Positions 1,461-64,000 of a DNA stretch of 64,000 nucleotides are shown in pieces (the stretch's first letter is position 1; every line of letters starts with the position of its first letter). A program made the position numbers and the translations under genes. The stretch lies in NCBI GenBank assembly GCA_938743325.2, contig OW568874.1:124001-188000 (forward strand), in the 5' to 3' direction. This stretch comes from Pycnococcus provasolii. Its lineage: Eukaryota > Chlorophyta > Pseudoscourfieldiophyceae > Pseudoscourfieldiales > Pycnococcaceae. The notes below the pieces were generated by a model, which was not told the DNA's origin, made no database searches, and worked only from the letters and a program-made list of their open reading frames with translations.

Positions 1461-4400
1461 ATGAGACGCGCGACGCGTGGGAACGTCGTTGCTGCCATCG
1501 CACTTCTCGCAATGGCCGGTGTGACGACGTGCCCCGAACCGTGCCTGGCCGAAACCACCGTCGACGTTGCGACGTTCGCGCAGTTTAAGGAGGCTGTGCA
1601 CGATAAGACGAGCGGGCCGAGCACCTTGCGAGTCACAAACGACATCGTCTACCCGACGGATGGATCTGTGCCGTCTGATGGAATCATCCTCAAGTACGCC
1701 GTGCGTATCGTCGGCGCGTGCTCGTCGACGTCGCTCGTCGTATCGGGCACGGTGGCCGCTGGAACGTGTATGCTCGACGCCAAGGAGGTGGACCGGCACT
1801 TCCAGGTGAAGACGGCTAAGGGAAGCACTGCCGAGGTAGTGTTCGAGAAACTCGCTCTGGTAAACGGCAAGAAGACAGGGAATAGTGATGATGGAGGTGC
1901 TGTCTATGCCTGGGGGGTGGGTGCGACTCGCTTCGAGTATGTGATCTTCGTGAACAACACGACTCCATATGGAGGAGGGGCGGTGCTTGCATCTTATAGC
2001 GGCAAGGCGACATTCTCGTCGTGCCGCTTCCTGGGAAACAAGGCATCATCGGTACGTTCCTCCCCCAATTCCCCATCAATCTCATTCGGCCTTGATTCGC
2101 CACTTGATCTCTCGCTGGCCCTCTGCCACCGTCTGTCAGTTTGTGATTTGCACGTGCGACAGTCTGCGGTTCGGTATACGCGCGTTTTGCCTGTGATGAT
2201 GTGTTTTGATGCGTGCGATATACCTACTGACTGGTAGCATATAGCGCCGCCGCCGTTCCCGCTGTGTCGCTATTATTATATCTTTGCTTGCTTGTTTTGC
2301 TGGAACGACTCGAAATACACATCACTAACGCAATTCCCGCACACTTATGCTACGCTTCCCCTCGACGACGCATGCTGTATTTCTTCCGTCGTACCAAACA
2401 ACAGTTTGGAGGTGCTGTTGACACGGATGGGACCGCGTCGAGTTTTACGGCGTGCACGTTTGAGAACAACGAAGCGGTACGTCTTTGTCTTACGAATATG
2501 CGACGAGGAGCGGCGGTAGCACCAACAACAGCCTTTTTATATGCGGACGCATATCATCAGGGTGGCGGGTGGAGAGGTGGAACAACCACGTACCAGAACA
2601 ACGAGACTAACGACGACTCGCCCACGCACACCTACACACACATGCCACACTGCTTATGGCTGATACCCATAAAACTACACAGAGTGTTGGAGGCGCGGTG
2701 GAATTGGGCTCCGCATCCTCGTCGACGTTCACGTTGTGCACGTTTCAGGGCAATCGGGCATTGGAGGGGGAATTCCGGGGGCACAATATGATGGTCATTG
2801 GCAGTTCCTCCTATGGATCCTCCTCCGCCTCCTTCTACGCATGCACGTTCCTCGACTTACTGAGTGATTCCAATCATGGTGTGACGAAAGGTGGTGATGA
2901 TGATGTTACCTCCATCACGTTCTACGACAACGCGCCGCCTTTTGCACCTCCTTCTCCTCCTCCTGCTCCTCCCGCATACGTGACATCTTTCTCGGATCTC
3001 AAGACCATCCTGCACGACCAAGCCTCCGGTCCAAGTATGATATACTTCACGCAGGACATCGACTACCCGACGGATGGATCTGTGCCTGAATTTGGAATCA
3101 TCCTGAAGTACGCCGTGCGTATTGTGGGCGCGTGCTCGTCGACGTCGCTCGTCGTATCCGGCACGGTGGCCGCCGGGACGTGTATGCTGGACGCGAAGGA
3201 GGTGGACCGGCACTTCAACGTGAAGACGGCTCCGGGGAGCACTGCCGAGGTTGTGTTCGAGAATCTCGCTCTGGTAAACGGCAAGAAGACAGGGGATTTG
3301 GATTATGGAGGTGCTGTCTATGCCTCGAGTACGGGTGCGACTCGCTTCGAGAATGTGATCTTCAAGGACAACACGGTTCCAGATTCTGGAGGGGCGGTGG
3401 GTGCAGAAAAAGGCGTCCTGGGTGAAAGCGGCAAGGCGACATTCACTTCGTGCCGCTTCCTGGGAAACAAGGCAAAGGTACGTTCCTCCTCCATTCCCCC
3501 ACCAACAATCAATCTCATTTTCGGCCTTGATTCGCAACTTGATCTCTCGCGGGCCCTCCACCACCGTCTGTCAGTTTGTGATTCGGACGAGCGACGGACT
3601 GCGGTTCGTTACACGCGTTTTGTCTGTGATGTGTGTTGATGCGTGCGATATACCTACCTGACTGGTAGTGTATGGCGCCACCGCCGTTCGCGCTCTGTCG
3701 CTATAATATCTTTGCTTGCTTATTTTGCAGGAACGACTCGAGATACACATTCACTAACACAACGACACTCTCCACCGTCTCTTTCACATACTCGCACACT
3801 TACGCTACGCTTCCCCTCGACGACGCATGCTGATTTCTTCCGTCGCACCAAACAACAGTATGGAGGTGCTGTTTTCACGGAAGAGACCGCGTCGAGTTTT
3901 ACGGCGTGCACGTTTGAGAACAACGAAGCGGTACGTATTTGTCTTACGAATAGGCTGTTGCTCAGGCGAACACAAATCTCTATACTCTTTCTCTCTCTCA
4001 GGCTGCTGCTGTTGGTGCTGCCGCTTCTGTCATACTCCGTCGTGATGGCTATGCTCGCGATACTTCTTTCGCGCACGGCGGCGACGACGGCGGTATTGGC
4101 GTCTGGCGAGCGACGCAATCATCATCATTCTTATGGAAAACGAACGAACCTTCGCTTGATGATGATAGGCAGCCTCGGACCGCGCTGCTTAGTCTCCTCG
4201 GAGAAGGCACGCCGTCTGGTATCGATGTTGCTGCTGTCATGGGCACTCACAAGTGAATGCCATCGTCGGCTCTGACGTGCGTCACGAATGATCATCATCA
4301 GAAGATGTTCCGATATGTGAACGGGCGACAACTCGTGCTGCGTATCTACGCGTGCGCACAGTCGCTTCCGCCGTGGTGTTGCTTGGCTGTCGAGGCGTCA

Positions 4401-5632
4401 CGTTCGAACGTCGCAGACGTGCTGCACTCCTCCGAGTGTGTTTTGTGGAGTGTGGACAGACAACGATCGATGATGGACGACAACGGCAAAAGAATTGAAG
4501 CTCGGCTCATCACAACAAGATACTACGTTGGTTCTAGAACTGGATCGTTCGTTTTGTCTTTGCCGTTCGCGTACACAGCCAGACGCCTACCGTCTACCGT
4601 CGCTGAGCAAGCCAGCCGCATCGCCATCATCGCGACAGCGCGACATCACATGACAGCAGCAGCAACAACAACAACAACATGCCATCACTTGCGACGAGGA
4701 GCGGCGGTAGCACCAACAACAGCCTCTTCTTTATACGCGGACGCGTATCATCATGGCAGCGGATGGGAGAGGTGGAACAACCACATATAAGAACAACGAG
4801 ACTAACAACGACCCGCCCACACACCTACACACACACGCCACACTGCCTAATGGCTGATATCCGTAAAACCACACAGAGATATGGAGGCGCGGTGTACTTG
4901 AACTCTGGATCCTCGTCGACGTACACGCTGTGCACGTTTCAGGGCAATCGGGCATTGAATGGGGAATCCGATGGGCACAATGTGTATGTCTATGGCAGTT
5001 CCTACTACCCCTCCTCCGCCTCCTTCTACGCATGCACGTTCCTCGACCTACTGAGTGATTCCAATCATGGTGTGGTGAAATATACGGGCGATGGTTCTGA
5101 TTCGTCCTTCACGTTCTACGACAACGCGCCGCCGCTTCCTCCTTCTCCTCCTCCTCCTCCACCACCGCTGACGTACTCGTACGCCACGGGCTCGTGGTCG
5201 TCGTGCTCTGCAACTTGCGGAGGAGGCACGGAGACGCGATCAGTCACGTGTAAGCAGTCGGACGGCCAGAGCGTGTCGGACTCGTACTGCTCGGGCTCGA
5301 AGCCGTCGATATCTCAGTCGTGCAACACGCAGGAATGCCTCACGTACTCGTACAGCACAGGCTCGTGGTCGTCGTGCTCTGCAACTTGCGGAGGAGGCAC
5401 GGAGACGCGATCAGTCACGTGTAAGCAGTCGGACGGCCAGGTCGTATCGGACTCGTTCTGCTCAGGCTCGAAGCCGTCGACATCTAAGGCGTGCAACGAG
5501 AACGTTTGCCCTCCCCCTCCACCATCACCACCACCATCTCCGCCATCGTCATCCTCCGGCGCAGATTCGGCGGCAACCGTCGGGGGTGCTGTGGTTGGCG
5601 TTCTCGTAGCACTCATGGGTATTGGGTACTAG
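1461..5632 (+). CDS. Receptor-like protein copy A: beta-helix/TSP1 ectodomain with terminal membrane helix, kinase lost
   Basis: Predicted exons are 1461-2051, 2405-2476, 2683-3477, 3859-3930 and 4877-5632 (761 residues). All junctions are phase 0 and every donor reads GTACGT. Seen: a signal peptide ending near CLAETT; a pectin-lyase-like start; repeated GGAV...FxxN motifs (FVNN, FLGN, FENN, FQGN) typical of right-handed beta-helix Pmp-type repeats; a Pro-rich linker; two thrombospondin type 1 repeats (about 608-722); and one hydrophobic helix ending at the stop. The beta-helix module (exons 1-3) is present twice, as exons 1-3 and again as part of exon 3 plus exons 4-5. Compared with copy B the whole cytoplasmic half is missing: a deletion joins the membrane helix to the last 16 kinase codons and creates a TAG. 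The product would be a surface-tethered, signalling-dead receptor. It could be a decoy or a decaying gene. Confidence 0.72.
3953..4689 (+). other. Intron-borne 737-bp segment, present or absent among paralogous introns
   Basis: The last intron of copy A (3931-4876) and intron 2 of copy B (9242-10207; segment 9264-10025) share this block. The otherwise homologous short intron 2477-2682 lacks it exactly, joining ACGAATA to TGCGACGAGG. In copy A it begins near a CT-rich tract with a CAG and then contains about 84 open codons up to a stop, with peptides such as GGIGVWRATQ. The copy B counterpart is interrupted by small indels. It is either an insertion in an ancestral intron or sequence cleanly lost from the short intron. 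Origin unknown. Confidence 0.5.
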
Positions 5633-8202: not shown

Positions 8203-9295
8203 ATGAGAATGAGACGCGCGACGCGTGGGAATGTCGTTGCTGCCATCATCGCACTTCTCGCAATGGCCGGTGTGACGTGGCCCGAGGCGAGCCTGGCCGA
8301 AACCATCGTCGACGTTGCGACGTTCGCGCAGTTTAAGGAGGCTGTGCACGATAAGACGAGCGGGCCGAGCACCTTGCGACTCACAAACGACATCGTCTAC
8401 CCGACGGATGGATCTGTTCCTTCTTGGGGAATCATCCTGAAGTACCCCGTGCGTATCGTGGGCGCGTGCTCGTCGACGTCACTCGTCGTATCTGGCACGG
8501 TGGCCGCCGGAACGTGTATGCTCGACGCGAAGGAGGTTGATAGGCACTTCCAGGTGAAGACGACTCAGTACAGTACGGCCGAGGTAGTGTTCGAGAAACT
8601 CGCTCTCGTCAACGGCAAGACATCAGGGAGTGCCAGAGGTGCTGTCAATGCCTACCAGACAGGTGCGACACGCTTCGAGAATGTGATCTTTAAGGATAAC
8701 ACGGCTCCAGAAGGAGGGGCGGTGGGTGCATATGCAAGCGGCAAGGCGACATTCACTTCGTGCCGCTTCATGGGAAACGAGGCTGCAGGCGTACGTTCCT
8801 CCCCCCCTTCCCCATCAATCTCACTCTGCCTTGATTCGCCACTTGATCTCTCGCGGGCCCTCCACCACCGTCTGTCAGTTTGTGATTTGCACGAGCGACG
8901 GACTGCGGTTCGGTACGCGCGTTTTGTCTGTGATGTGTGTTGATGCGTGCGATATACCTACCGAAGTGGTAGCAGTGTATGGTGACGCCGCCGTTCGCGC
9001 TGTGTCGCTATTATAGCTTTGCTTTTGCTTGTTTTTCCGGAACGACTCGAGATACACATCACTAACACAACGACACTCCCCACCCTCCCTTTCGCATACT
9101 CGCACACTTACGCTACGTTTCCTCTCGACGACGCATGCTGATTTCTTCCGTCGTTCCAAACAACAGTATGGAGGTGCTGTTTACATGTGGAATACTGCGT
9201 TGAGTTTTACGGCGTGCGCGTTCGAGAACAACGAAGCAGGGGTACGTCTTTGTCTTACGAATAAGCGCTTGCTCAAGCGAACACACACCTCCATA

Positions 9296-9332
<37 letters not shown>

Positions 9333-12300
9333 GCTGCTGTTGTTGGTGCTGCTGCTCTCATACTCCGTCGTGATGGCTATGCTCGCGGGGCTTACTTCGC
9401 GCACGACGACGACGGCGGCGGTATTGGCGTCTGGCGCGCGACGCAACCTCATCATTCTAATGGAAAACGAACGAACCTTCGCTTGAGGATGATAGACAGC
9501 CTCGGACTGCGCTGCTTGGTCCCTTCGGAGAAGGCACGCCGTCTATGATCGATGCTGCTGCTGCCATGGGCACTCACTTGTTGTGAATGATGTCATCGTC
9601 TATGACGTGCATCACGAATGATCGTCATCGGACGATGTTCTGACACGTGAACGGACGACAACTCGCGCTGCGTATCTACGCGTGCGCACAGTCGCCTCCG
9701 TCTTGGCAGTATCGCAGCGTTCCTGCTTGTGGCTGTTGTTGAATATCGTTCGAACGTTGCGGACATCCAAAGCTGCACTTCGATGTGTGCGTGCAGACAG
9801 ACGACGATCGACGACAATGCAAACGAACTGAAGCTCAGCTCATCACAACAAGATACTACGTTGGTTCCAGGACTGGATCATCCGTTTTGTCTTCTTCGTT
9901 CGTGTACACAGGCAGGCGCCAACCGTCTTCTAACGTCGCTGAGCCAGCCAGCCGCATCGCCATCATCGCGACAGCGCGACATTACATGACAGCAGCAGCA
10001 GCAACAACAACAACACGCGATCACATGCGACGAGGAGCGGCGGTAGCACCAACAACATCCTCTTTATGTGCGGACGCGTATCATCAAGGCGGCGGATGGA
10101 GAGGTGGAACAACCACATACAAGAACAACGAGACTAACAACGACTCGCCCACACCTTCCCACACACGCCACACTACCTGAATGGCTGATACTCGTAAAAC
10201 CACACAGCATGCTGGAGGCGCGTTGTACTTGGGCTCCGCATCCTCGTCGACGTTCACGCTGTGCACGTTTCAGGGCAATCGGGCGGTGCTTGGGGAATCC
10301 TATGGGCACAATGTGTGGGTCTGGGGCAGTTCCACCTATGGATCCTCCTCCGCCTCCTTCTACGCATGCACGTTCCTCGACTTACTGAGTGATGCCAATC
10401 ATGGTGTGACGAAATATACGGGCGATGATTCTGATTCCTCCTTCACGTTCTACGACAACGCGCCGCCGCTTCCACCAGGTATGGTGCTTCCACCACCACC
10501 GCTGGCGTACTCGTACAGCACAGGCTCATGGTCTTCGTGCTCAGCGTCATGCGGAGGAGGCACGCAGACGCGATCAGTCACGTGTAAGCAGTCGGACGGC
10601 CAGAGCGTGTCGGACTCGTACTGCTCGGACTCGAAGCCGTCGATATCTCAGTCGTGCAACACGCAGGAATGCCTCACGTACTCGTACAGCACAGGCTCGT
10701 GGTCGTCGTGCTCTGCAACTTGCGGAGGAGGCACGGAGACGCGATCAGTCACGTGTAAGCAGTCGGACGGCCAGAGCGTGTCGGACTCGTACTGCTCGGG
10801 CTCGAAGCCGTCGATATCTCAGTCGTGCAACACGCAGGAATGCCTCACGTACTCGTACGTCACAGGCCTGTGGTCGTCGTGCTCTGCAACTTGCGGAGGA
10901 GGCACGGAGACGCGATCAGTCACGTGTAAGCAATCCGACGGCCAAAGCGTGTCGGACTCGTACTGCTCGGGCTCGAAGCCGTCGATATCTCAGTCGTGCA
11001 ACACGCAGGAATGCCTCACGTACTCGTACGTCACAGGCTCGTGGTCGTCGTGCTCTGCAACTTGCGGAGGAGGCACGGAGACGCGATCAGTCACGTGTAA
11101 GCAATCCGACGGCCAAAGCGTGTCGGACTCGTACTGCTCGGGCTCGAAGCCGTCGATATCTCAGTCGTGCAACACGCAGGAATGCCTCACGTACTCGTAC
11201 GTCACAGGCTCGTGGTCGTCGTGCTCTGCAACTTGCGGAGGAGGCACGGAGACGCGATCAGTCACGTGTAAGCAGTCGGACGGCCAAAGCGTGTCGGACT
11301 CGTACTGCTCGGACTCGAAGCCGTCGATATCTCAGGCATGCAACACGCAGGCATGTCTCACGTACTCGTACACCATCGGCTCATGGTCTTCGTGCTCCGC
11401 ATCCTGTGGATTAGGCACGCAGACGCGATCGGTGACATGCCAGCGCTCGTCAAACAGCCAGGTCGTATCGGACTCGTTCTGCTCGGACTCGAAGCCGTCG
11501 CCATCTAAGGCGTGCAACGAGAACGTTTGCCCCCCCCCTCCACCATCACCACCACCATCTCCGCCATTGTCATCCTCAGGCGCAGATTCGGCGGCAACTG
11601 TCGGGGGCGTTGTGGTTGGCGTTCTCGTAGCACTCATGGGTATTGGGTACTATCTATATCGGAATTATCGTATCCATGGCAATGTGCCATGTGGTGGTAA
11701 AAACAATGGTGGTGCTGATGTGGAGAGTGGCAATGTGCCAGAAAGTCCCGTGGAACAGTTCAACAACGCAAAGTCGCAATTCCAGAAGCAGTACGACAAC
11801 TTTGGCAAGATCAGCGATGTCACGAGCTTCGGGACAAGCGTCGGCGGTGCTATCGGCACAGCCGGCGAGGCAGGAGGAGGGGGTGGTGGCGACGATCCCT
11901 CCCTGGCGGTTGAGGCTGGCCGAATGGTCGCCGAAGCAGGCCGATCACTTCCATTCTTGGCACCTTTGTTTCAGATTGCCAATGCCATCTATACGCAAGC
12001 GGAGCATGCACGCATCTGCAAGGAGAACTGCCGCATTCTTTCTGACCTCGTTCGTGCAATTGATTCGGCAATCCGAGACGCAGCGGTCACAAATCCTGAA
12101 GTCATCAGGCGGCACGAAGGGCGCATCAACGATCTCTGTGGCGTCTTGACGCGTGTACTAGAGTATGTCGAATCCTACAACAAGAAGGGATGGTTAATGA
12201 AATTCGTGAGTGCGATTGCGTATACGAACGATTTCAAGCTTCATGATAGCGAGCTGCGTAATCACATCAGCGCGGTAGGACTTGCCATTCATCTCGCGCC

Positions 12301-13504
12301 CACGGCGCATAAGTACACCGATGAGACGGCGGCTTTGCGTACATATATTGAGCAGAACGGCGGTGCGAATAGCGCACTCGCAAACGAAACGTGCCGAGCT
12401 GAGATTACGAAAATGCTTGGCGTCGAGTCGCAGGTGCTGAGTGCAGAAATCGCAGGACTTGCTGAGCTCGTGCAATCTGGTACTCGCCAGAATGAGCAAA
12501 ATGCCCGTCGCATCTCTGACAAGCTGAATCAGCTCGACGCCAAATTTGATTCCAAGATGGAAGAGATGGTGGATGCATTAATCAAAGCTCAGGCTCAGCA
12601 AGGGAATGAGCGCGCACCGTCTGCTGATAAAAAAGGATCGTCGCTTGAAGCAATGAAGGAAGCTCTTCCAGCGTTTGTCATTCGCTCGAACGATGTGAAA
12701 AAGAAGGCAATCGTCGGAGAGGGAGGCTTTGGCGTCGTTCACGAGGCGATGATGAAGGGCACACAGGTCGCAGTGAAGGAGTTGCATGCTCACCGCCTGA
12801 ATCGGCCGTCCATCAAAGATTTCATCAGGGAGGCTAATATTCTTTCACAGCTCAAGCACCCGAATGTGATGGCGTTCTACGGCGTGATTCTCGAGCCTCC
12901 TATGTATGCGATGGTAATTCAGTACCTAGGCAATGGTTGCGTGCACGATTCGCTCGTCGACGAGGATCAAGAGCTTGCGTGGAGTTTGCGTATGCGCTGG
13001 GCACTTGGTCTCGTCGCGGGTGTGAACTACCTACACAACTGCGATCCTGTGGTTATTCACGGAGATATCAAGAGCATGAACCTTTTGCTTGATGCCAATA
13101 AAAATGCCGTGCTGTGTGACTTTGGCATGGCGAAAATCAAAACGGCCTCTTCGGCATCCACAGCAACTGGTGGCGGTAAAGGCATCACTGTGAAGTGGAC
13201 GCCACCAGAGATCTTTGACGGGACCAAGAAGTCCAAGGCGTCCGATATGTACTCGGTGGCAGTGACGTTGTGGGAAATTGCATACCGAGATCTCCCGCTT
13301 CCCGACATGCCTGACCCAGCTTATGTGATGTTTATCAAGGGAGGTAAACGTCCACCTCTCCCGACGCGCAAGGAGACTGGATGCCCGATACGTTATGGCA
13401 AGGTGGTTGATTCGTGCTGGGCACAAGCGCCGGAATCGCGTATGAGCGCGGCGAAGGCTCTCGAGGAGCTCGAGGAGATGTTTGATCGAGTTGACAACTA
13501 CTGA
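8203..13504 (+). CDS. Receptor kinase copy B: beta-helix/TSP1 ectodomain, TM, MLKL-like helical bundle, TKL kinase
   Basis: Exons 8203-8790, 9167-9241 and 10208-13504 (about 1319 residues, phase 0, GTACGT donors). Order: signal peptide (about 1-32), Pmp-like beta-helix with GGAV and FxxN motifs (to about 310), six TSP1 repeats with WSSCSATCGGGTETRSV cores (about 322-662), Pro-rich linker, membrane helix (about 680-705), Gly-rich linker, helical domain (about 788-940), coiled coil (about 957-1019), kinase (1046-1319). The helical domain has CKENCRILSDLVRAI (Cys825, Cys829) and a later FVSAIAYTNDFKLHDSELR segment, the layout of the MLKL N-terminal four-helix bundle. The kinase looks active: GEGGFG loop, Lys1078, HGD (Asp1174), DFG (Asp1192), and TPPE for APE. 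It resembles tyrosine-kinase-like (TKL) kinases. I infer a surface receptor that could drive membrane permeabilisation or cell death. The kinase call is firm, the MLKL-like call fairly good, the function untested. Confidence 0.85.
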
Positions 13505-60699: not shown

Positions 60700-63513
60700 C
60701 TATATGACGCGCATGCGCGGGTCGACGAGCTTTGCGCTCATGTCGCGCAACAACGCGACGCGATTCGCGTCCAGCGCATCTCGTGCAGCACGCTTCGACG
60801 ACTCGAGCGCTCGCACGTGACGCATGCGCGGCAAAAGCAGAGCAGGATCGCGCGACTCCGTCGCATCCTCGTCGACGGTTCCATCCTCGGGAGCGTCCTT
60901 CCCATCGCTCGGAGCTGCGTCAGCACCATCCGCCGCGGCGGATGCGGATGTTGATGTATCCGGTACGTTGCCGAGGCTGTCCTGGAGTTCGACGAGCTTA
61001 ATGTCGTAGAAAGACTTATCCTTGAGCCGCTCCTGGTCCGACACCTCGTACAAGTCGGCAGGATCCGGTCCGCTCATAAATGGCGCAGGCCCGAAAGGCG
61101 ACAATTCCCAAGAATCGCGTCGCTCAACCCATCGACTGCTGAGGCGCGGCTCGCGGCGCATCGCCTGGAAGCTGCCCATGGATGGCGTATCGTAAGCCAC
61201 AGAGTCGTGGAAGGCGAACCCTTTCGGAACGATGCGGTAGCCCTCATCCACGCCCCAATTTACAGGTCGACATCCTCCAAGCACGCCACATGCAGCTGCG
61301 GCAGATAGCGCCGCACCCGCACCATGACCATGCCTCAGAGGCTCCACCACCTCGCGAAGCAGACCCTGGGGAACCGTTTCCACCACACGAGACGGTGCGG
61401 CCGTGGCCGTTTCCTTGCATGCCACCGCAAGACCAGCCCCGGACATGCCGGCGATCATGCTCTCCTCCTCCGCGGCACCAGTGCGGAGAGAAACATCCGT
61501 GTCCAGGAAAGGAAGCAGATAGTCGTCCATTGGCGCCAAAGGCTCGCGCACGTATCGCTCTGCCAAGTCCTTGGGCTGCTTCTCGACGTCAAGGGGGACG
61601 TGCCGACTTAGAGGCGTCCACGGCGCCACTTCGTGCCCGCTGTACGATGCAAAGTTCACGTCGGGAGCCTGCGGCGGAGGGTGCACCACGACGGAGATCT
61701 CTTCGAGGCGAAATGGCATTTCGAGGCTCTTTGCAGATTTGTCGCGGCCTGCAGCGAGCATCTCATGCGCGACAAATGCCGCCGCCTTGTCCTTGCTCTT
61801 ACCACCAATATTTGCGACCATTGCACGTACGAATTTCAGGCGCTTTTCTGCGCGAAGGCGGTAGATCACAGTGTGTACGGCTCTGATGAAGCGCGTCACA
61901 GTCATGAAGCGCTTCGTCCAGTCATTTTTGTCGTTGTCGTCGAAGCGTGGAGTGTACTCTGCCAAAGCTCGCTCCCTCATCTCCTGCGACGACGTGCATA
62001 CGACTCCTTGCGATGCGCCGGTGGATGCCGTCAAGCGCTCACGGGCAAGCCGTCTCTCGTCACTCGTGCGCGCGCTCTCGCGATTTTGTCTTCCTGCAAC
62101 GACTTCAGCCATTTCCTCCTCGGTCATGGCCGGCGTGCCGGGTGCGTGGCAGAAGCGCATTTCCTTCACCTTCTCCGCCTTTGCTATCCGATCGAACTCG
62201 GCAAGGAATGCCGCCTCTGACTCGGCGCGGCGTGCGGCAGCCACGGCAGCCGCGTTCGTCTCGTTGGCACTTCCCATCGACTTGCCGTGAGAAACGCCGT
62301 ACATCAGGGTTTTGCGCACGTACCCGTGGTTGCCGCTGAGCACGTAGTGGCGAAGCGGATGGGTTAGCCCCTCCCTGGCATACTCGCCGCTGAACGTGTG
62401 CGGCGCGCCCGTAGATGTCAGCTCGCGCCACGGCATATCGTCAAAAACGGTCGTGCTCTTCTCGGGAGGTCCGACGTGAGTGGGAAGCTTTCCATACTCG
62501 CCCGTCTCCTTCAGCGCCGCAACGCGCATTTTGTGAAGACGTCGCGTGGCACCGTCCCCGCGGCCAGCCCCACCTCCACGGTTCAGCCGCTTCAGGGTTC
62601 CAATCGCGGCTGTGCCGTTGAGCACGCGAAGGTCGAGCGGGTCGAGTCCCTCAAGGCCGTCGATGGGCTCCGCGTCTCGCGCCGCGCGTTCGTAGTGCTT
62701 ACCGAACGCGCCATTTCCCACGAGGTGACAGATGCTCGGCGCCGCGGCGCTGGCAAAGTCGCTCGCGTCGAAGCGAAGCTTGGCGTGCCTCGTCGCAGGG
62801 TGTGTCGGTGTGAACGTCACCTTAAGCTCTGCGGAGCCGTTAGGCGGCAGCTCTCCGCTGCTCGGCGACACGTCGAACTCGTCGGCGTCTGTATTTTCCG
62901 CGATACGTGCCGCGAACTGGAACGCTGCTGACGAGGGGTTGTGCACGCGCAGCACGGTTCGCCTGGTGGTTCCGAGCGGCACCGCGCCAAAGTCGTGTCT
63001 TGTCGGAAGCAGGCTGTTTTCGCCCACGGCACGCGAGAGTCCCGGGTAAGCGTGTATGGGCACGACGAGTCCCGCCTTGTCTGCGGTGTGCACTCTGATG
63101 ACGTCCGTGTAGTATCTCAGTTCCGTTGGGTGAAACTCGACGGTAACCTCCTCGGACATGCCCGCGGCGACTTGCCCAAGTTTTCCTCGGAACGTCACTC
63201 GGAACGCGGCGGAGGCTGGCGGGAGGAGGTGCAGTCTCTGCGTGAAGTCGGAGACGTTCACGAGCCTGAGCTTGAGTGTGTGCGTTCTGTTGAGTTGAAA
63301 TCCTTGGAAGTGCACTTCGTCAGGTCGCGCCTCGAAGACGGCGTTGCGCGTTAGACGCGTGTACACGTTATCGTCGAGCGGGTTTCTCAGCGAAAGCGGT
63401 ACGGCCTCTGACACGACGTCGACGAGGAGCTCCGAGAGCTGAAGAGGAGCCTGAGGGGCCTGAGGGGCAGGAGAGGCCATGGCCGCGGACTCCCTGGGGA
63501 GAGTCGTCGCCAT
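60700..63513 (-). CDS. CFAP221: CFAP221/PCDP1-like axonemal protein with ASH/MSP domains (937 residues)
   Basis: The N-terminal third has two to three immunoglobulin-like ASH/MSP domains: VHFQGFQLNRTHTLKLRLVN followed by VSDFTQRLHLLPP, HDFGAVPLGTTRRTVLRVHN and LPPNGSAELKVTFTPTHP. A basic helical middle (DNDKNDWTKRFMTVTRFIRA followed by VHTVIYRLRAEKRLKF) could bind calmodulin, as CFAP221 does in the C1d projection of the motile-cilium central pair. The C-terminal part is acidic and less conserved. Length is close to known CFAP221. Another Hydin-related protein is possible. Its presence implies a motile flagellum at some life stage or in recent ancestry. Confidence 0.65.
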   Translation of the reverse strand: MATTLPRESAAMASPAPQAPQAPLQLSELLVDVVSEAVPLSLRNPLDDNVYTRLTRNAVFEARPDEVHFQGFQLNRTHTLKLRLVNVSDFTQRLHLLPPASAAFRVTFRGKLGQVAAGMSEEVTVEFHPTELRYYTDVIRVHTADKAGLVVPIHAYPGLSRAVGENSLLPTRHDFGAVPLGTTRRTVLRVHNPSSAAFQFAARIAENTDADEFDVSPSSGELPPNGSAELKVTFTPTHPATRHAKLRFDASDFASAAAPSICHLVGNGAFGKHYERAARDAEPIDGLEGLDPLDLRVLNGTAAIGTLKRLNRGGGAGRGDGATRRLHKMRVAALKETGEYGKLPTHVGPPEKSTTVFDDMPWRELTSTGAPHTFSGEYAREGLTHPLRHYVLSGNHGYVRKTLMYGVSHGKSMGSANETNAAAVAAARRAESEAAFLAEFDRIAKAEKVKEMRFCHAPGTPAMTEEEMAEVVAGRQNRESARTSDERRLARERLTASTGASQGVVCTSSQEMRERALAEYTPRFDDNDKNDWTKRFMTVTRFIRAVHTVIYRLRAEKRLKFVRAMVANIGGKSKDKAAAFVAHEMLAAGRDKSAKSLEMPFRLEEISVVVHPPPQAPDVNFASYSGHEVAPWTPLSRHVPLDVEKQPKDLAERYVREPLAPMDDYLLPFLDTDVSLRTGAAEEESMIAGMSGAGLAVACKETATAAPSRVVETVPQGLLREVVEPLRHGHGAGAALSAAAACGVLGGCRPVNWGVDEGYRIVPKGFAFHDSVAYDTPSMGSFQAMRREPRLSSRWVERRDSWELSPFGPAPFMSGPDPADLYEVSDQERLKDKSFYDIKLVELQDSLGNVPDTSTSASAAADGADAAPSDGKDAPEDGTVDEDATESRDPALLLPRMRHVRALESSKRAARDALDANRVALLRDMSAKLVDPRMRVI

Positions 63514-64000
63514 GGCAAGTTCTTAAGTTCTTCCGAGGGACCAGGGGCTTTGAGAGGGGAAAGGGAGCGGGGGACTCCTCCAAGGCTCAAACAAAGCAAT
63601 GGGCACCACCTAAGGTTAGGTGCGAGTTCGTGATTCCAAGCACTCCCTGAGGACACGCATTTATTAGACGATAGGTCAATAAGGTCATGATAGGAGTCTT
63701 TTGAGGGAGGACTTCCTCGAAGACTGACTGACCGGTCAGTCAGTCTTGCCTCAATGAGTGCGTGCTCTTTTGTTGTACTCAAGAGACTAAAACGTTTTAG
63801 TACTACTGTATTGCGCGGATGTGCGAGGGACTACCCTACCCGGGTAGCTAGAGTGAGAAATCATAGTCTATCAATGAGCGACAAAAACGCCGTAACAAGC
63901 ATCCGTCGGACTGGAGTCTGGAGGAGGAGTTGGTTCCAAAGGACCTGGCAAGGGCTGGCAAGAACTAAGAAGTTGCAAAGTTGGCGGAGGGCTTGGAGAG
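63514..64000. promoter_or_regulatory. Upstream region of CFAP221 with three perfect palindromes
   Basis: No gene is seen. A perfect 28-base palindrome (half-site AAGACTGACTGACC) lies at 63720-63747. A 16-base one (ACTAAAAC/GTTTTAGT) lies at 63786-63801, and a 12-base one (CTACCC/GGGTAG) at 63836-63847. They sit 207-334 bases before the CFAP221 start codon and may be regulatory, or may belong to the next gene outside the window. Confidence 0.5.

Follow-up and report, generated by a model that had tools for sequence, protein, structure and literature searches.

The window analysed here, a 64,000-nucleotide stretch of the alga Pycnococcus provasolii (contig OW568874.1, positions 124,001 to 188,000 of the forward strand), carries at positions 8203..13504 a gene for a receptor kinase with a beta-helix ectodomain and an MLKL-type helical bundle in its cytosolic half. 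In this study, we found that a few recurrent positions in the beta-helix coils are hypervariable, and that the bundle and the kinase are under purifying selection. We tentatively favour, at slightly less than an even chance, the reading that this protein is a recognition receptor kinase, for pathogens or for self and non-self, with the bundle as its membrane effector. The recognition role is well supported; killing by the bundle is suggested by its homology. The first-pass annotation had proposed an immune or cell-death receptor. Recognition is supported by the hypervariable coil positions, whose predicted orientation is outward; they make the best case for an immune-like role and formed no part of that earlier reading; the death function still depends on the relationship of the bundle to MLKL.

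The hypervariable positions lie one, three and four residues past the V of the GGAV motif. Mean nonsynonymous change (pN) at these places was 0.53, 0.64, 0.65 and 0.59 in coils A, B, C and D, tested on 14, 12, 10 and 13 distinct copies, respectively. The other motif columns of the four coils had a pN of 0.03-0.05, and synonymous change (pS) was 0.12-0.22. Random column triples reached the pN of the three positions in a fraction of 0.0006-0.001. The same three positions were the most variable in all four coils, in a test that was not blind, as the coils had been inspected in alignments beforehand. The copies were gathered by motif patterns that fix a large part of the backbone and free the variable places, so the low variation elsewhere is partly built in; in an exon-1 set collected with an unconstrained middle, pN at the same six columns was 0.44-0.69. 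Few recurrent hypervariable positions per repeat on a conserved backbone, the mark of diversifying repeat receptors of the HNWD type, were thus present in these pattern-collected copies. Conserved hydrophobic residues occupy +0 and +2, which is typical of side chains that point inwards; by strand alternation, +1 and +3 would then lie on the outer face.

Intron divergence was much lower than the change at these positions. It averaged 0.113 in intron 1 (10 copies, 45 pairs) and 0.119 in intron 2 (9 copies, 36 pairs), counted over ungapped columns in sets that share copies with the exon sets without being identical to them; each intron set includes one atypical member (of 705 and 212 bases, respectively). 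The pN at +1, +3 and +4 was therefore about 5 times the intron divergence and 2.5-5 times the synonymous change, which is beyond what relaxed constraint would yield. In the motif alignments, codons at the fixed places differed at one to three bases, and neighbouring codons hardly changed the protein. Adenine-directed diversity generation was ruled out, because all three codon bases change and the adenines in between stay fixed.

A neutral simulation on a star tree, for exon 3 only and with 300 runs per divergence, was compared with the nine exon-3 copies. Columns with a pN above 0.5 numbered 10 of 78 in the copies, against a simulated mean of 0.03 and a maximum of 2 at a divergence of 0.13, and a mean of 1.5 and a maximum of 6 at 0.25. 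At the lower threshold of 0.25, the 18 of 78 columns observed were inside the simulated range for 0.13 (mean 8.4, maximum 21). Columns above this lower threshold were also found in exon 1 (36 of 158, 14 copies) and exon 2 (5 of 30, 8 copies), showing that variability is not confined to the three positions. The pattern filters dropped rows, so that the exon-3 column table holds 9 copies, compared with 13 in the coil test, and the exon-2 table omits the window gene.

Selection was then compared across the domains of five receptors of this type in the genome, by counting estimates of pN/pS that come from recombining paralogues. Pooled over 10 pairs, pN/pS was 0.27 in the kinase, 0.33 in the bundle and 0.41 in the linker, and it reached 1.12 in the last part of the beta-helix (single pairs 0.72-2.87). 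A pN above 0.5 was seen in 6 of the 79 columns of the exon-3 helix, in 2 of 141 bundle columns, in none of the 114 linker columns and in 3 of 283 kinase columns. The bundle and the kinase are thus under purifying selection. Weighing against the recognition reading, pooled pN/pS was only 0.45 over the whole exon-1 beta-helix, and it was 0.69 in the membrane helix with the juxtamembrane part; these values indicate that only some positions are driven. The nearest copy also differs by domain: C14 is closest to C26 in the kinase, but to C15 in the juxtamembrane segment and the last part of the helix, which suggests recombination among the copies.

The gene consists of three exons on the plus strand, with GT-AG junctions and phase 0 introns, and encodes a single open protein of 1319 residues. 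Exon 1 (8203..8790) encodes a signal peptide (about residues 1-32) and the first beta-helix coils (residues 33-196), of which coils A and B are hypervariable. After intron 1 (8791..9166), exon 2 (9167..9241) adds one coil, residues 197-221, which is hypervariable coil C. Intron 2 (9242..10207) is followed by exon 3 (10208..13504), which runs from the end of the beta-helix to the stop. It begins with the last coils (10208..10462, residues 222-306), among them hypervariable coil D, and continues with six tandem TSP1 repeats (10508..11530, about residues 322-662) and a single transmembrane helix (11591..11656, about residues 683-704). The cytosolic half comprises the MLKL_N-type bundle (11894..12322, about residues 784-926; Pfam match proper 11966-12289), a helical-looking linker that may be a brace or a coiled coil (12323..12664, about residues 927-1040), outside the MLKL_N match, and a TKL-type protein kinase domain (12698..13468, residues 1052-1308).

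Pfam matched the ectodomain with Beta_helix (6.6e-8), Chlam_PMP (9.8e-8, three stretches) and TSP1_ADAMTS (5.6e-82, six stretches). Mean hydropathy above 1.5 in 19-residue windows was found only at residues 6-32, the signal peptide, and 678-706, the membrane helix. In the kinase, PK_Tyr_Ser-Thr matched residues 1052-1308 at 1.5e-49, and the catalytic motifs were recognised by pattern: the glycine loop at 1058-1065, VAVK at 1075-1078, HGDIKSMN at 1172-1179, DFG within 1191-1195 and PPE within 1219-1223. Profiles, hydropathy and motif patterns therefore agree with the signal peptide, Pmp-like beta-helix, six TSP1 repeats, single membrane helix and intact TKL kinase read earlier from the letters, and the protein has the complete layout of a receptor-like kinase. 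The gene is not a pseudogene, as its frame is open and its cytosolic half is under purifying selection.

We next consider how solid the relationship of the bundle to MLKL is. In a 260-residue piece, Pfam MLKL_N (PF22215) matched residues 808-915 with an E-value of 7.8e-10 and 38.9 bits, above its curated cut-off of 27 bits; over the whole of exon 3 the values were 2.5e-8 and 34.0 bits. All five receptor copies passed the cut-off. The first-pass annotation had staked its cell-death reading in part on such a profile match, and on this point it stood. A profile of eight rows from the own genome was searched against the PDB, and seven distinct MLKL sequences took places 1-7 of 21 with E-values of 1.8e-6 to 1.9e-5, the next match being at 0.1. 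With the five receptor copies alone, one MLKL sequence came out on top (0.0018; next 1.4). A profile of the three distant copies of the bundle in the genome gave MLKL in places 1-5 at weak values of 0.009-0.011, followed by designed proteins at 0.017-0.038 and a sixth MLKL at 0.063. When the eight-row profile was reversed, MLKL was absent from the PDB matches and the best E-value was 0.28. Chance or a coiled-coil artefact as the source of the match was ruled out by this control together with the seven top ranks, all held by MLKL. These results support a relationship of the bundle to the MLKL N-terminal domain, as judged from curated and PDB profile searches.

Two features noted earlier as MLKL-like need correction. 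The match spans profile positions 4-112 of 142, which correspond to the four-helix part, and the brace lies beyond it; the four-helix-plus-brace fold is a prediction from homology. In the linker, where a brace would lie, the aligned copies differ by a clean indel of seven residues, one heptad. The Cys pair C825/C829 aligns with an MLKL Cys pair in the five receptors but is missing from the three distant copies, and it is therefore not diagnostic for the bundle family.

Several observations weigh against the bundle as an MLKL-type effector. A single-sequence PDB search with the bundle gave mouse MLKL as its sole match at an E-value of at most 10, at a non-significant 0.15. In Pfam, 7 of 8 members of the bundle family matched MLKL_N at an E-value of at most 10, only the five receptors doing so above the cut-off; the distant copy C43 reached 23.8 bits, and the distant copies C16 and C11 were not listed for MLKL_N at an E-value of 0.05. 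The bundle also gave weaker matches, below the cut-offs, to DUF7792 and MCAfunc, for which we know of no death role. The bundle carries no net positive charge, its 17 K+R being balanced by 17 D+E, and with 14 K+R against 18 D+E the linker leans to the acidic side, unlike the MLKL brace, which depends on arginine according to the literature available to us. In the kinase search against the PDB, MLKL was not among the best 60 of 1591 matches. The top entry of these 60 was labelled epidermal growth factor receptor (9p9u), with CTR1 and RIPK2 next, and then TAK1, ROCO4 and RIPK3 among others. For comparison with RPW8 and HeLo domains, the RPW8 Pfam model scored 13.5 bits against a cut-off of 30.4, so that any affinity of the bundle to RPW8 would be distant at most.

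If the bundle is a membrane effector, the receptor may work as follows. The right-handed beta-helix on its TSP1 stalk would bind a variable ligand through a patch that includes the three outward positions of each coil, and binding would cluster the receptor. The clustered TKL-type kinases could then phosphorylate one another or a partner. The bundle, which a tether of about 80 residues links to the membrane helix, might thereby be released onto the inner leaflet, oligomerise there and perturb the membrane or open a cation path. The outcome would be defence or recognition-triggered death.

The same receptor could instead use the bundle as a non-lytic module for membrane docking, oligomerisation or autoinhibition that controls kinase signalling. 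We regard this as quite possible. The intact kinase motifs, the conservation of the domain and the lack of basic charge in the bundle all fit such a role; against it, the solved relatives that top the profile searches are all MLKL, a death executioner. The wider bundle family bears on this point. The genome (32.3 Mb, 46 contigs) was searched with residues 770-1044, which recovered, besides the query itself, four close copies with 85-94% identity and the three distant ones (20-22% identity; E-values 9.8e-10, 6.9e-8 and 0.0015). The distant bundles belong to proteins that start with MGC, at 4749-7193 of L027, 5199-8300 of L028 (minus strand) and 5014-7785 of L029, in which no kinase match was found. 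An MGC start is typical of lipid anchors, and membrane-proximal scaffolding may be a common theme of these proteins. Since these distant relatives belong to proteins that have no kinase match, functions other than death are also conceivable for the bundle. Pfam gave only weak GAF matches below the cut-off in L027 and L029, plus DUF7792 in one of them. By eye, L028 and L029 also contain a thioredoxin-like segment.

The four close copies show the same order of beta-helix, TSP1 repeats, membrane helix, bundle and kinase. The genome therefore holds five such receptors, and the combination of sensor and bundle in one chain, first read from the window gene, is real and common to all of them. The close copies vary in extra ectodomain segments and in how many beta-helix modules and TSP1 repeats they have. 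By eye, an ectodomain segment with KRRRSL or a similar sequence recurs in L026 (a C44 copy), L028 (minus strand) and L057, so that one receptor has it in common with other surface proteins; our guess is that it may be a self-cleaving or SEA-like domain.

The beta-helix itself is more widespread. The exon-1 query gave 24 genome matches, 20 of them with at least 58% identity, one of those over just 41 residues. Three copies, one upstream in the window, one on contig C34 and one on contig C26, are membrane-anchored and lack a kinase. The upstream tandem paralogue (1461..5632, plus strand; splicing partly worked out) has two beta-helix modules, with matches at 1548-2048 and 2980-3474, two TSP1 repeats and a membrane helix directly followed by a stop. 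Beyond the stop, the sequence is the 3'-terminal part of the kinase gene, indicating that the cytosolic half was lost by internal deletion; this deletion placed the final kinase-gene codons beside the membrane helix and created the stop. The C34 copy has the identical deletion junction, so the truncated form itself was duplicated; the C26 copy is truncated differently. Such a truncated copy is possibly a decoy receptor. Contig C25 (L056, 1243-3441) encodes a distantly related receptor kinase, the sixth with a beta-helix, that lacks MLKL_N and whose membrane helix was judged by eye; the copy on contig C7 combines a membrane helix with an unrelated tail that Pfam did not match; and on contig C8 (L061, 1-2937) a beta-helix module precedes a long array of FG-GAP repeats in Pfam. 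L052 and L058 (contig C38) resemble L061 by eye in this arrangement. Relatives outside the genome were not confirmed among 47 pattern matches in viral contigs, nor among 160 in prokaryote genomes with a single-protein query.

A fuller form of the effector reading would be a single-protein necroptosis pathway at the cell surface of a microalga, with a repertoire of hypervariable beta-helix receptors that would each have a kinase and an MLKL-type executioner of their own, and kinase-less decoys beside them. We consider this scheme unlikely. It is improbable that the receptor serves mating, adhesion or self/non-self discrimination, with diversity for partner recognition and not for defence: the beta-helix module does occur with FG-GAP repeats and in kinase-less membrane-anchored copies, and titles of papers report diversifying selection in plant self-incompatibility receptors, but five close paralogues with differing variable residues would be more in keeping with a repertoire than with a single mating type. 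Very improbable is an origin of the hypervariable codons in relaxed constraint or a mutational process. In its favour, the varying module numbers and discordant closest copies point to active recombination, which can distort the counts, and the exon-3 count at the lower threshold fits neutrality; the count at the higher threshold, the excess over introns and synonymous sites, the recurrence of the same positions in four coils and the fixed adenines, which do not fit an adenine-specific mutator, speak against it.

The recognition receptor with a bundle as membrane effector was also compared with known systems. Like animal MLKL, it has an N-terminal-type bundle, as seen in the Pfam match and the top-ranked MLKL sequences, followed by a helical linker and a kinase-like domain. 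Unlike soluble MLKL, it has a signal peptide, an ectodomain and a membrane helix, and its bundle differs from that of the animal protein in having no net positive charge. The MLKL pseudokinase of animals and Arabidopsis is catalytically dead, whereas VAVK, HGDIKSMN and DFG are present in the algal kinase. According to the accessible parts of two reports, MLKL homologues are known from animals, fungi and plants (PMC11476962, PMC9950082). A precedent in resistance for an MLKL N-terminal domain with an intact kinase is Pm13 of a wild wheat relative, which confers powdery mildew resistance; in the portion of the paper at hand, a brace connects the two domains, the kinase keeps the key catalytic residues, and mutants in each of the three parts lose resistance (PMC10951266). 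The same portion gives Pm13 as a protein of 476 residues, found as a GFP fusion in the nucleus and cytoplasm, and describes no ectodomain (PMC10951266).

Fungal NLRs offer a second comparison. Excerpts of the literature describe all-in-one NLRs with a HeLo/HELL domain, some HELL domains being joined to a kinase or pseudokinase (PMC12881547), and near-identical NLR repeats in which positive selection acts on a small number of interface positions in each repeat (PMC4986451). Both traits, each described in a separate source, resemble the algal receptor. These NLRs differ in being NOD proteins inside the cell that carry WD, ANK or TPR repeats; the algal protein is a kinase at the cell surface that carries a beta-helix, and the Pfam scan listed no NOD (NACHT or NB-ARC) domain in it. 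A survey that includes freshwater algae lists MLKL as one NLR-associated class, the species bearing it being unstated in the text available (PMC11218826). The algal protein shares signal peptide, ectodomain, single membrane helix and cytosolic kinase with plant receptor-like kinases. It differs from the seven ectodomain classes that, in the accessible text of a 350-genome survey, make up almost 70% of these kinases and include neither Pmp nor TSP1; 'thrombospondin' and 'MLKL' are absent from its main text (PMC10834447). Among the matches listed from titles and abstracts of openly licensed PMC papers, neither a Pmp/TSP1 receptor kinase nor a surface receptor carrying an MLKL or HeLo domain came up.

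Other genes were noted in passing. The minus strand of the window encodes at 60703-63522 a protein with ASH/HYDIN/CFAP-type domains, which suggests an alga that makes flagella. A chlorophyll-binding family gave 51 exon-by-exon matches in the genome, of which three loci were read; one of these, compared with the PDB, corresponded to chlorophyll a/b light-harvesting proteins of photosystem I, which indicates that the alga has a plastid of the green type. On contig C31, twelve light-harvesting matches of equal score form two clusters of six (133072-142609 and 360395-366434), consistent with recent duplication or gene conversion.

In the sources available to us, MLKL-type bundles occur elsewhere in MLKL proteins, in kinase fusions such as Pm13 and in intracellular NLRs. 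The algal protein appears to present the MLKL_N-kinase arrangement as a receptor, the ectodomain of which is diversifying. If this is true, a sensor, a kinase and a putative executioner would be united in one membrane-spanning chain, and the alga would gain a receptor repertoire comparable to the hypervariable NLRs of fungi. It would also become testable how single-celled algae recognise non-self, and whether the bundle-kinase arrangement may serve, or may have originated, as a receptor module.

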